IMG/VR virus record: IMGVR_UViG_3300009149_000208
Location: 1 to 28,352 of that record
Length of the DNA stretch: 28,352 nucleotides
Direction: 5' to 3' (one strand)
Source: a virus
Shown: in pieces, positions 6,600-27,047 of the stretch
Layout: the number at the start of each line of letters is the position of its first letter
Numbering within the stretch: position 1 is the first letter of the stretch
Program-made: the position numbers and the translations under genes
The notes under the pieces: model-generated
The model's input: the letters and a program-made list of their open reading frames with translations, nothing else
What the model was told of the DNA's origin: nothing
The model's database searches: none

Positions 6600-7205
6600 C
6601 TATACCAAATTTGGCTGGATGGGGATTTTGTTGTAGGTGAGCAAGGGGTGGCAATGGTTACAGGCACACGCCAGATTTGTGGATTTGTTAGCCTCTTCTG
6701 CCGATGCAAATTCTCTAAATGCTATAATATGATGAACGGGAATATTCTTTCGTTTTCTTCTGCAAATTCTACAGCGGTAGCCATCCCTAATTCTAATTTG
6801 CTCTGCGATTTTCTTCCAATTCCTACCTCTATAAGTAAGTTCACCTCCGATGTAATAGGGACTATTATTGCCACTGGCAAACTCTTTATTCCAAAGACGA
6901 TAACAGGCAAGACTACAAAAGCTATGGTTGTTTTGTTTGGCGTATTTACGCCTATTAAGTTCAAAGGGTTTCTGCTTGAATTCTTCACCGCAATAATCGC
7001 ATTTAAGAACAACTGGCTCTTTCCAGTTATGGCTATCCCTGCCTCTGTAATGGGGCAAACTTTGAGGGTTTCCCTTGCCCGCTGGCGGGAAGCCTTGATG
7101 TTCATACCGCCATTTAGCCATACAAGAACGGCTACAAAAACGACCCAATTGGTTATTCCTAGCCTTAAAGGTTTTCCCACAATATTCACAAACTCTATTT
7201 ACCAT
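6600..7205 (-). CDS. leftward HNH homing endonuclease with zinc fingers
   Basis: A 201-residue protein. Two N-terminal zinc-finger-like units (CEYCGKTFKA...FCSRSCMAKW and CDYCGEEF...FCSLACYRLW) are followed by W..IAEQIRIRDGYRCRICRRK...VHHIIAFREF...NLACACNHCH, a complete HNH motif (HH, N, H). This is the architecture of free-standing phage homing nucleases. It runs against the operon between two methyltransferase genes. Its own promoter overlaps the start of the next gene and places the transcript start almost at the ATG, with no SD (see promoter entry). Downstream, at 6573, the plus strand carries MEIKFKRDT, resembling the MELKFKVDT start of the methyltransferase. Confidence 0.85.
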   Translation of the reverse strand: MVNRVCEYCGKTFKARNNQLGRFCSRSCMAKWRYEHQGFPPAGKGNPQSLPHYRGRDSHNWKEPVVLKCDYCGEEFKQKPFELNRRKYAKQNNHSFCSLACYRLWNKEFASGNNSPYYIGGELTYRGRNWKKIAEQIRIRDGYRCRICRRKRKNIPVHHIIAFREFASAEEANKSTNLACACNHCHPLLTYNKIPIQPNLV

Positions 7206-14950: not shown

Positions 14951-15165
14951 AATGTCTTAAATGTGCAGGTAAAGGATTTATCGAACTTGAACACGGTCTT
15001 ATAACGGTGGAGTGTGCTGACTGTTGTGGAACAGGAGAAATACTAGATGTCATTAATAGCGGAACTGGACAGCCTGATAAATCTATTAGAAGCAAAAATA
15101 CCAGCAAACCCAAACAGTCCCGTAAACCAAAGATTAGAAAAGGGACTGCAAAAAGAGCTGACTAA
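14947..15165 (+). CDS. DnaJ-type zinc-knuckle protein with basic tail
   Basis: A 72-residue protein: MKCLKCAGKGFIELEHG...CADCCGTGEI, a pair of C-x2-C-x-G-x-G-like knuckles, followed by a Lys/Ser-rich tail (SKPKQSRKPKIRKGTAKRAD). AGGAG is seven bases upstream of ATG 14947. Its tail overlaps the first 119 bases of the MuF gene in another frame, so the true C-terminus could be functional or just permitted. Confidence 0.55.
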   Translation: MKCLKCAGKGFIELEHGLITVECADCCGTGEILDVINSGTGQPDKSIRSKNTSKPKQSRKPKIRKGTAKRAD

Positions 15166-16618
15166 ATATTTCAAAGCTCTTGAAGATGCCTTTCCCTACA
15201 GTGAAGTGGAAAGGCTTTATTATGCCTATGTGAAAGAGAGTCTGGGGGCTGAAACGGGGAATACTCTAGACCCATTATTAGCCACTTTTAGAACTACTTT
15301 ATTTCAACAGCTCAATAATCAGTTATTGGCAGTTTATCTTTCGGGGTCAGCCGAGATGGTAACTTGGGGTAAGACTAAGGCTGGTATCCCAATAGCTTAT
15401 GAGGGGCCGCCGATTGAGCAGGCTATAACCTGGGCGGATAAATACTGTGCTAAATTAGTAACTCAGATGGATGAGGAAACCAAACGGCGACTGGCAAAGG
15501 TTGTCAGTGATGGCATTAAGAATAAACGAGGTGTCCCCGGACTGTCTAGGGACATTAAGAAGCAATTTACTAATATGAGCAGGTATCGCAGCCAGATGAT
15601 AGCCCGGACAGAAACGGCAAATACCTTATCACAGGCAAGCCTTGATAATATGATGGATATGGGGATAGAGGGCAAGGAATGGGTTACTGGCGGTGAACCC
15701 TGCGAGATATGTGAGGGGAATGAGGCTGAAGGAGTTATCTCTGTAAATCAAGCCTTCTCTAGTGGACATATGAACCCACCAGCTCACCCAAACGCAGTAT
15801 TTGAGGGTTATGGATTCTTTCCATATGGCTCACTTCAGCAAATGCTTCGTTCTCGATATGACGGCCCCTCGATTTCGATTGAGGCTGAGCGATTTGACGA
15901 TAGATTCCAACTGGCGTCTGGGAATTCCGCATATATGTCCGATATCTCTCATAGAGACATTCTGAGAGAAAAGGAACTTGCATCTTTCAATTTGACTGCT
16001 GGAAATAGGAGTAGGGGCTTTATTACTATATTTCCTCAAAGGATACAACTCACCATTGGGCCTAATCACCCTGTGTTGACCAGACGTGGTTTTGTTGATG
16101 CACAATTCCTCAATGAAGGCGATGAGTTGCTTTATGACATTAGGAGTGAATTCACGGCAAGTGGTATTACCCCTGATTTCGAGCAAGTTCATTCTGTCGA
16201 GGGTGTATTTAAGTCTATAAGGTCTCTCGCGGACCACATAGGAATTCCCGCTGCCAAAAACTATTTCCACGGCGACGAGTCCTTCTGCTATGGTGAAATC
16301 CAAGTTGTAAGGCCCCAAGGGAACCTGTTGCCTATAAAGAATTCTGGCATCATCGAGCATTTGAGCAAATGCAACCTCACGGAAGCCTATGCCGATACTG
16401 AGCATGTGGCGAGTTGTGGTTCTTGCCAATTTCGTTTCAATAGTATCTTTCATTCCCCTCCGTGCTATATGTGCTGCTTCCGTATTAACTCTATTCATAA
16501 AACCTCCTTCAGTGGGTGGGCCTTCGATGCCTCTACCTCAACTGAATTATACAATATAGGCGGTGTGGTGGTCAAGAACTGTGTCTGTGCCTTAGCCCCC
16601 GCTAGATTAAATAAATAA
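15047..16618 (+). CDS. MuF-type minor head protein interrupted by an intein (Hint) domain
   Basis: A 523-codon frame. Residues 1-249 and 512-523 are a phage Mu gpF-like head morphogenesis protein: helical N-terminus, RSQMIARTETANTLSQASLDNM, EWVTGGEPCEICEGNEAEG (C219, C222), then PPAHPN. The normal MuF ending HPN-CxC is split: HPN (247-249) is followed by 262 foreign residues, then CVCALAPARLNK (512-523). The insert has Hint features, described in the intein entry. Splicing would give a 261-residue protein with HPNCVC restored. MuF proteins attach to the portal inside the prohead. CAGGAG is the SD for ATG 15047. An antisense gene lies within the intein part. Confidence 0.9.
   Translation: MSLIAELDSLINLLEAKIPANPNSPVNQRLEKGLQKELTKYFKALEDAFPYSEVERLYYAYVKESLGAETGNTLDPLLATFRTTLFQQLNNQLLAVYLSGSAEMVTWGKTKAGIPIAYEGPPIEQAITWADKYCAKLVTQMDEETKRRLAKVVSDGIKNKRGVPGLSRDIKKQFTNMSRYRSQMIARTETANTLSQASLDNMMDMGIEGKEWVTGGEPCEICEGNEAEGVISVNQAFSSGHMNPPAHPNAVFEGYGFFPYGSLQQMLRSRYDGPSISIEAERFDDRFQLASGNSAYMSDISHRDILREKELASFNLTAGNRSRGFITIFPQRIQLTIGPNHPVLTRRGFVDAQFLNEGDELLYDIRSEFTASGITPDFEQVHSVEGVFKSIRSLADHIGIPAAKNYFHGDESFCYGEIQVVRPQGNLLPIKNSGIIEHLSKCNLTEAYADTEHVASCGSCQFRFNSIFHSPPCYMCCFRINSIHKTSFSGWAFDASTSTELYNIGGVVVKNCVCALAPARLNK
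15830..16498 (-). CDS. antisense homing-endonuclease-like gene nested entirely inside the intein
   Basis: A 222-residue protein on the opposite strand, wholly within the intein DNA. Residues 56-110 (RQQVPLGPYNLDFTIAEG, then LVAVEI, RPYRLKYTLDRMNLLEIRG) follow the pattern of DUF559/Vsr-like PD-(D/E)XK nucleases: Asp67 in LDF, Glu78 in VEI, then a basic helix and a final L-E-I strand. Residues 139-155 (SGQHRVIRPNGE) and a helix-turn-helix-like SMRDIGHICGIPRRQLESIV (182-201) follow. AAGGAGG is four bases before ATG 16498 and TTGACC-18-TATAAT lies just upstream. Its codons are in register with the sense codons. Catalysis is inferred; the third residue of the ExK motif is not obvious. Confidence 0.8.
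   Translation of the reverse strand: MNRVNTEAAHIARRGMKDTIETKLARTTTRHMLSIGIGFREVAFAQMLDDARILYRQQVPLGPYNLDFTIAEGLVAVEIVFGSGNSYVVRERPYRLKYTLDRMNLLEIRGNTTCREFTPNVIKQLIAFIEELCINKTTSGQHRVIRPNGELYPLRKYSNKAPTPISSSQIERCKFLFSQNVSMRDIGHICGIPRRQLESIVKSLSLNRNRGAVISRTKHLLK
16503..16509 (-). promoter_or_regulatory. perfect SD of the antisense nuclease gene
   Basis: AAGGAGG on the minus strand (16509-16503), four bases before ATG 16498. On the plus strand the same bases are intein codons (Thr-Ser-Phe region just before FSGW), so a consensus SD is maintained inside a conserved protein block. Confidence 0.8.
16546..16575 (-). promoter_or_regulatory. antisense promoter embedded in the intein C-terminal splice block
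   Basis: Minus strand: -35 TTGACC (16575-16570), 18-base spacer, -10 TATAAT (16551-16546, perfect). Predicted transcript start near 16539, giving a leader of about 40 bases with the SD. On the sense strand these bases encode ELYNIGGVVVKN; the -35 box covers the VVK codons next to the splice junction. Confidence 0.65.
16592..16618 (+). repeat. direct repeat of the MuF gene 3' end (second copy 16853-16879)
   Basis: The last 27 bases of MuF (encoding LAPARLNK-stop) recur at 16853-16879 with 22 of 27 identical by my alignment; the second copy reads IAPTRLKR-stop. The gene 16633-16836 lies between the copies. Confidence 0.6.
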
Positions 16619-26324: not shown

Positions 26325-27047
26325 TTAGGGGAGGTTCATTTTAGTGGCATCTAATAGCGATTGTTCTAATTCCATTACCCTGTTTTCAAGAACTTTAATT
26401 CGTTTTGCTTTTTCGGCTAAAACTTGGGAATGGGCACGAGATGGCATACCTACTAGGTTTTCAGGGCGGTTATCATTTTTAATGCCATTAAGATGGTGGA
26501 CTGTCCAGCCTTCAGGGAGGGGTATTTTATGAGCATCTTCCCAAACAAGAATATGTTCAAAAATATAGCCATTTACTCCACTGCGATGGTGGTCAGGCTT
26601 ATAAACTCGTACATAACCTGTCCGTGTTTCATATGTTCTGTAGCCATTATAGCGAGGATGCATATCACCAGTCTTATATCCCATTTGAGGATATTTGTGA
26701 TACGCCAATTTGATAGCTTCACCAGAAGTCCTCAGTTTGAGGCCATTGTCATCAAAGAGTCGTTTCAGAGTGTAAAAAGATATGCTCAATTGTTGACAAA
26801 CTTCTCCAAAGGAAAGTTCCTTATCGTAGTAAAGTTCCTTAGCTTTTGGGAGCATAACTATAATCCTATTATCCTGACCTTTACGATAAACCTCTGGAGT
26901 TTTTGGCGGGATACCATAAAGACGCATATTTCTGCGAATGGTATCCTTGCACACTCCGAGCCTGTCAGCAACTTCACGCAGTTTAAGATTCTCAGTGTGG
27001 TAAAGGTGGTTCAGCGTATTTTTATCTATAGGGATTGGTTTTGGCAT
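26325..27047 (-). CDS. leftward HNH homing endonuclease with helix-turn-helix domains
   Basis: A 240-residue protein. The N-terminal 110 residues contain two HTH-like units (LKLREVADRLGVCKDTIRRNM and LSFGEVCQQLSISFYTLKRLF). Residues 120-215 hold the HNH_3-type nuclease: YVRVYKPDHHR, NGYIFEHILVWED, WTVHHLNGIKNDNRPENLVGM, with a coiled-coil end (EKAKRIKVLENRVMELEQSLL). SD AAGGAGGT and a near-consensus promoter drive it. It sits opposite to the operon, right before the tape measure start. Confidence 0.88.
   Translation of the reverse strand: MPKPIPIDKNTLNHLYHTENLKLREVADRLGVCKDTIRRNMRLYGIPPKTPEVYRKGQDNRIIVMLPKAKELYYDKELSFGEVCQQLSISFYTLKRLFDDNGLKLRTSGEAIKLAYHKYPQMGYKTGDMHPRYNGYRTYETRTGYVRVYKPDHHRSGVNGYIFEHILVWEDAHKIPLPEGWTVHHLNGIKNDNRPENLVGMPSRAHSQVLAEKAKRIKVLENRVMELEQSLLDATKMNLP

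Follow-up and report, generated by a model that had tools for sequence, protein, structure and literature searches.

The window analysed here is the whole of a 28-kb phage record from IMG/VR (28,352 nucleotides). In it, a MuF open reading frame of 523 aa (15047-16618, plus strand) contains an intein, and a second open reading frame, of 222 codons, lies on the opposite strand wholly within that intein (Table 1). The promoter, ribosome-binding site, reading frame and stop of this antisense gene are all inside the intein, and the stop falls near the first intein block. The preliminary description of the window, made from sequence alone, had claimed both that a 222-codon antisense gene is contained in the MuF intein and that the sense frame of the intein has no endonuclease domain. 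Both claims held: the reading frame was confirmed, and profile searches against Pfam, PHROGs and NCBIfam found no sense-frame nuclease domain in this intein. The intein boundaries are supported because intein-less relatives are available; one of them, locus L288, reads PPAHPN followed directly by CACAIAPARIKK, and the window reads PPAHPN, then the intein, then CVCALAPARLNK.

Table 1. Features of the MuF locus in the window
Feature	Position	Strand	Basis or remark
N-extein, MuF-like head morphogenesis protein	15047..15793	+	phrog_2468 (3.9e-22), TIGR01641, PF04233; ends in HPN, as in intein-less L288
Ala1-type intein, 262 aa, Hint splicing domain	15794..16579	+	profile, AlphaFold, Pfam matches of relatives
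C-extein CVCALAPARLNK, +1 Cys	16580..16618	+	begins CVC
Antisense homing-endonuclease-like gene, 222 aa	15830..16498	-	codon-aligned antisense in 182/182 relatives; purifying selection
Vsr/DUF559-like nuclease core (predicted), residues 36-138 (E41, Q58, YNxD67, VAVE78)	16085..16393	-	AlphaFold, fold comparison
C-terminal helix-turn-helix (predicted), residues 158-206	15881..16027	-	opposite the insert between intein blocks A and B
Shine-Dalgarno AAGGAGG of the antisense gene	16503..16509	-	inside sense codons T-S-F; same place in L002-L004
Sigma-70 promoter TTGACC-N18-TATAAT of the antisense gene	16546..16575	-	-35 within the last codons of the intein
Intein block B TIGPNHPVLT	16052..16081	+	opposite nuclease C-terminal motif HRVIRP; invariant H92 (alignment A4)
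Sense FHGD motif	16265..16276	+	mirror of antisense VAVE, the active-site strand

At this locus the antisense codons are exact reverse complements of the sense codons. In such a codon-aligned register antisense stops correspond to sense TTA, CTA and TCA, and none of these three codons occurs across the region of the antisense frame. Given the sense residues and the local codon usage, the probability of this openness is ~10^-5.2 for the window; summed over 180 loci it comes to 10^-608, which is not a true joint probability since the loci are related. We rejected openness as the sole evidence because two HNH genes elsewhere in the window also face long open reverse frames. An open reverse frame by itself is thus weak evidence, and the case rests on comparative data. 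Both HNH genes are free-standing and lie on the minus strand. One (6600-7205; PF01844, 2e-6) has Cys-rich motifs and sits beside a DNA methyltransferase gene, and the plus frame opposite it has 258 open codons, codon-aligned and apparently by chance. The other, an HTH + HNH_3 endonuclease gene (26325-27047; 1.3e-10), faces a 212-codon open plus frame.

The sense element meets the criteria for an intein, having blocks A, B, F and G, a Hint fold and a precise absence in other alleles; splicing itself is inferred. Its family profile matches the KlbA (MJ0781), RadA and RecA inteins, and the AlphaFold model of the sense intein superimposes on the RecA intein with a Z-score of 11.3 (rmsd 1.8, 107 aligned). 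Pfam Intein_splicing is matched by 51 of 70 relatives. The window intein ends in VVKN followed by C, with Asn262 and His92 conserved, and a +1 Cys is present in 172 of 177 loci. AlphaFold is moderately confident about the middle region of the sense intein, but we do not regard this region as a genuine domain, since the conservation there may mirror that of the nuclease. It is worth pointing out that each of the 70 host proteins with an intein that were tested matched PHROG 15127, labelled 'head protein'; since the window protein is matched mainly inside the intein, this family may rest partly on intein sequence.

For the antisense protein, a DUF559/Vsr-like core followed by a C-terminal helix-turn-helix (HTH) had been claimed, and this held by structure prediction and fold comparison. 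AlphaFold2, run with the window antisense protein and 126 relatives, gave a mean pLDDT of 87.8, with the nuclease core mostly at 88-98. The top Foldseek matches of the model are I-Bth0305I (3r3p) and Vsr (1vsr), and VIA-align Z-scores are 10.5 for Vsr, 10.0 for 3hrl and 9.6 for 3r3p. The C-terminal HTH scores 6.6 against the GcrA DNA-binding domain and 6.3 against Tc3A. At the family level, the nuclease Pfam PF18741 is matched by 69 of 126 members (best E 2e-9) and DUF559 by 10, and the family profile finds 3hrl at 8.5e-7. The window antisense protein alone had no match in Pfam, PHROGs, NCBIfam, PDB or the related-locus search. We therefore regard membership in the Vsr/DUF559/MTES_1575 superfamily as a model-based prediction, resting on the fold and on family profiles.

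Y64, N65, D67, A76 and E78 are invariant across the 126 sequences, and Y64, D67, E78 and R95 in alignment A1. No invariant His or Lys that would complete a textbook active site was seen among the aligned nucleases. As to the E-D-x-H-D signature, E41, D67 and E78 are conserved and there is no invariant His, a comparison made without residue-level alignment to I-Bth0305I. Phage members of the family carry N-terminal HTHs above Pfam cut-offs, together with weak Vsr, DUF559 and MTES_1575 matches. The nuclease of the window family has no N-terminal HTHs and instead a C-terminal one, encoded opposite the insert between intein blocks A and B. The difference between the window plus L002-L004 and the other relatives points to domain shuffling within the dual-coded region.

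About 200 relatives were gathered from phages and from bacteria of a dozen phyla. They came only through tblastn on phage records, an intein-sequence search and a DNA pattern; alignment A1 was too diverse for the related-locus search. The tblastn search against phage genomes matched 47 records, in which, wherever checked, the frame is antisense to an annotated head/minor-capsid or hypothetical gene, with the exception of Acinetobacter phage IME285 (L021). Three IMG/VR contigs have 240-aa antisense frames 67-69% identical to that of the window. The mirrored active-site pattern FHGD...YNxD retrieved at least 120 viral contigs and 69 genome contigs. According to the titles of the genome contigs, the host phyla are Firmicutes, Actinobacteria, Chloroflexi, Proteobacteria, Myxococcota, Acidobacteria, Spirochaetes, Bacteroidota, Chlamydiota, Zixibacteria, Ignavibacteria and Peregrinibacteria. 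Beyond MuF, the proteins that carry the insert are of the types Phage_min_cap2, VG15, dCMP deaminase and uracil-DNA glycosylase. The arrangement is thus larger than was first claimed, being a widespread class not unique to the window and found in deaminase and uracil-DNA-glycosylase genes as well. In Virus Rctr197k (L018) the gene concerned is dCMP-deaminase-like, and its annotation reads 'putative head morphogenesis protein'.

When the loci were scored with profiles of the nuclease and of the N- and C-terminal splicing parts of the intein, the nuclease was found in 199 of 215. The remaining 16, all from the 69 genome-contig pattern matches, have neither nuclease nor intein and were set aside as chance matches. 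Both intein parts lie on the opposite strand in 183 of the 199 nuclease loci; 15 have one part, being truncated by contig ends or weakly scored, and L021 has no intein. Wherever the strand could be judged, the nuclease was never on the intein's own strand. In each of the 182 loci with complete splicing domains, the sense frame is open through the host gene and the antisense frame is codon-aligned and open. The IME285 locus (L021:455-1345) carries the nuclease without an intact intein opposite it; its sense frames contain stops, and all that is left of the intein is a block-F-like remnant 'HVHSLM*'.

Our first pattern scan selected loci for an intact nuclease core. A scan with block B only (TPNHPVLT) is less biased, yet this motif is itself mirrored in the nuclease tail. 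It gave 71 new intein loci, 67 with an antisense nuclease, two without and two truncated. L230, one of the two that lack the nuclease, has an unidentified insert between blocks B and F, and its antisense frame contains 20 stops in 260 codons. Two of the outcomes that had been named beforehand as refuting the antisense gene were antisense stops scattered at random in homologues and the lack of any nuclease profile match. The first was not seen, with nuclease cores intact in 265 of 265 loci and the four flagged stops all upstream of the true start; nor was the second, given the PF18741 matches and the resemblance to I-Bth0305I and Vsr.

To compare selection on the two strands, we took 55 non-overlapping pairs, classed single-nucleotide codon differences by their effect in each frame relative to expectation, and bootstrapped over pairs. 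The resulting w values are approximations from single-change codons. In the non-overlapped ends of the intein, which serve as the control, w is 0.1 for the sense frame and ~1.0 for the antisense frame. In the overlapped N-splicing region it is 0.13-0.28 (sense) and 0.24-0.49 (antisense), and in the middle of the intein 0.49-0.67 (sense) and 0.19-0.26 (antisense). From this pattern it follows that the antisense gene is dominant in the middle, and the sense protein at the splicing blocks. Of the two translations, the antisense one has the higher identity in 52 of 55 pairs, and exteins show the usual third-position excess. Read on the other strand, the codons of the sense FHGD give the nuclease VAVE; in an independent sample the Phe codon of FHGD is TTC, which gives antisense Glu, in 32 of 32 cases against 18.2 expected. 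The substitution patterns of the 55 pairs show purifying selection on the antisense protein and, where it matters, on the sense splicing protein.

The expression signals of the antisense gene are embedded in sense codons as well. Its Shine-Dalgarno/start region in the window reads AAGGAGGTTTTATG. In many relatives the antisense start is at the His codon of the block F motif 'GHVYNLQT', and this codon is CAT (antisense ATG) in 107 of 127 loci, compared with 55 expected from synonymous codons. Likewise, 101 of 140 loci, against 34 expected, use CTC for the Leu codon and thereby form the GAG of GGAGGTT. Both excesses were replicated in 24-29 independent loci. A perfect TTGACA-N18-TATAAT (12/12) is found in L002-L004 at the same place as the window promoter. 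Among 166 loci, 13 have a promoter score of at least 11/12 and six score 12/12, against 1.5 and 0.1, respectively, expected by synonymous resampling. The position is mostly such that the -35 starts 5-8 nt into the extracted region, at the C-terminal end of the intein. Promoter-like sites at 10/12 or better are a minority (25 of 166 loci). Thus, a start codon, a Shine-Dalgarno sequence and, in some loci, a sigma-70 promoter are present within the sense codons of blocks F and G, and antisense transcription is inferred from them. These signals strengthen the earlier suggestion that the nuclease is expressed independently of the head gene, although expression remains an inference.

Empty alleles of the same host genes delimit the insert precisely. 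In fEg-Eco06 (Kagunavirus) it measures 894 nt, and its removal from the 1938-nt gene leaves 1044 nt, exactly the length in phage 590B, with flanks ~90% identical; of 183 records with similarity to this fEg-Eco06 gene, no more than 4 cover 80% of it or more. In KpTDp1 (Jedunavirus) an insert of 975 nt is missing from BUCT_49532, and in the window family the MuF alleles of L288 and L292-L294 are empty. Pairwise distances correlate at 0.44 between nuclease and splicing domain and at 0.12 between splicing domain and host, which is consistent with nuclease and splicing domain moving jointly between hosts. A MuF relative with a 62% identical extein, L289, bears at HPG^C an intein that differs from that of the window and likewise has a nuclease gene antisense to it; this might be an independent invasion of the same codons.

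Several alternative explanations can be considered. The one that survives best, though it is unlikely, is that the antisense nuclease is expressed but serves a role other than homing, such as competitor exclusion or Vsr-like repair. Vsr is a repair endonuclease, 3hrl is uncharacterised, and phage homing nucleases can exclude competitors too (PMC7468147). However, the nuclease is found almost exclusively inside the intein, its presence or absence is precise at conserved codons, and its HTH modules resemble those of phage homing enzymes. Homing and other nuclease functions are not mutually exclusive. Much less plausible is that the nuclease is the sole real gene and the sense intein a decayed or passive open frame. 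Weak sense constraint in the middle of the intein speaks for this, but in the splicing blocks w for the sense frame is ~0.1-0.3, every one of the 182 sense frames is open through the host gene, the +1 Cys is nearly universal and a Hint fold is predicted. Moreover, the host head genes are presumably essential, and therefore the insert must splice.

It can be all but ruled out that only the intein is real and the antisense frame a by-product of codon bias and sense conservation. Long reverse frames do occur opposite the two HNH genes, and a codon-aligned frame automatically turns conserved sense motifs into conserved antisense ones. Against this, the antisense frame is more constrained than the sense frame in mid-intein and unconstrained outside the gene, its translation shows nuclease profiles and a nuclease fold, the Shine-Dalgarno sequence, start and promoter exceed synonymous expectation, and the related nuclease-less intein L230 is full of antisense stops. 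Finally, the loci could be related to 'fractured genes', in which the halves of a split intein flank a free-standing nuclease gene. This explanation shares the nuclease superfamily and the phage setting (as reported by Dassa et al. 2009) but is practically eliminated by a sense frame that continues across the nuclease gene, with no split, in 182 of 182 loci.

Taken together, the sequences argue very strongly for a functional gene on each of the two strands: both frames exist and are under purifying selection, expression signals are embedded, a nuclease fold is predicted and the insertion polymorphism is precise. Very probably, then, we are dealing with a widespread class of mobile inteins in which the homing endonuclease is encoded antisense and expressed separately, where transcription, cutting, homing and splicing are inferred, homing in particular from fold, location and polymorphism. 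In this scheme, the Hint domain, encoded on the sense strand in frame with MuF, would splice itself out of the head protein. The antisense strand would supply a homing endonuclease of the Vsr/I-Bth0305I fold with HTH DNA-binding modules, under its own promoter and ribosome-binding site and so transcribed independently of the late head operon. The nuclease would bind and cut the conserved MuF codons (HPN^CxC here) in a co-infecting intein-less phage, recombination would copy the intein into the break, and splicing would hide the insert from the head protein. It is tempting to go further, and we consider it likely, taken as a whole, that this is an undescribed and globally distributed class of mobile inteins with the splicing protein and the homing endonuclease codon-aligned on opposite strands, that the nuclease gene together with its promoter forms an autonomous transcription unit inside the intein, and that the sense 'FHGD...VDVV' is largely a shadow of the nuclease active site.

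In textbook inteins, the nuclease is expressed solely within the host protein that undergoes splicing. Use of both strands would free nuclease production from the late head operon and still keep the insert short and splice-neutral. Evidently, a Hint domain and a nuclease can share codons over 220-300 residues; they do so across a dozen phyla of bacteria, selection can be measured in either frame, and the long-debated codon-aligned antisense (Rodin-Ohno-type) coding becomes directly testable. If true, few comparative data sets on protein-coding genes nested wholly antisense to another gene would be as large. There is also an annotation blind spot, as the only examined phage record whose annotation lists the antisense gene is that of IME285, itself without a recognisable intein. 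The preliminary description knew of no standard annotation class for the arrangement; we likewise found no prior description of an antisense nuclease in inteins in the literature searched, subscription journals being mostly outside its scope.

Canonical mobile inteins such as PI-SceI likewise combine a Hint domain, a homing nuclease between blocks B and F and conserved host codons. However, in known cases the nuclease is translated fused to the intein (PMC3943268), whereas here the nuclease is a separate opposite-strand gene with its own start, ribosome-binding site and promoter. I-Bth0305I of a phage group I intron and the EDxHD family offer the closest solved homing-nuclease fold and are also multi-domain, with separate DNA-binding modules, but they are encoded in introns or free-standing rather than nested antisense in inteins. 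The fractured genes of Dassa et al. 2009 reportedly consist of a split intein with a Vsr-like nuclease between the halves, in phages. They share with the present loci an intein and a separately translated Vsr-like nuclease in phages; in the present loci, however, no break interrupts the sense frame, and the two genes use the same base pairs. In Porphyra rDNA group I introns the endonuclease gene lies on the complementary strand (PMC2585584), so that there, too, a homing gene is antisense to a splicing element. The intron RNA extension is not protein-coding and needs no dual coding, whereas in the inteins both strands encode folded proteins. In bacteria, long genes that overlap another gene in antisense also derive two proteins from the same base pairs, but those reported are few and possibly evolutionarily young (PMC9927249), whereas the intein pair is widely distributed, with more than 180 loci, two recognisable folds and selection measured in both frames.
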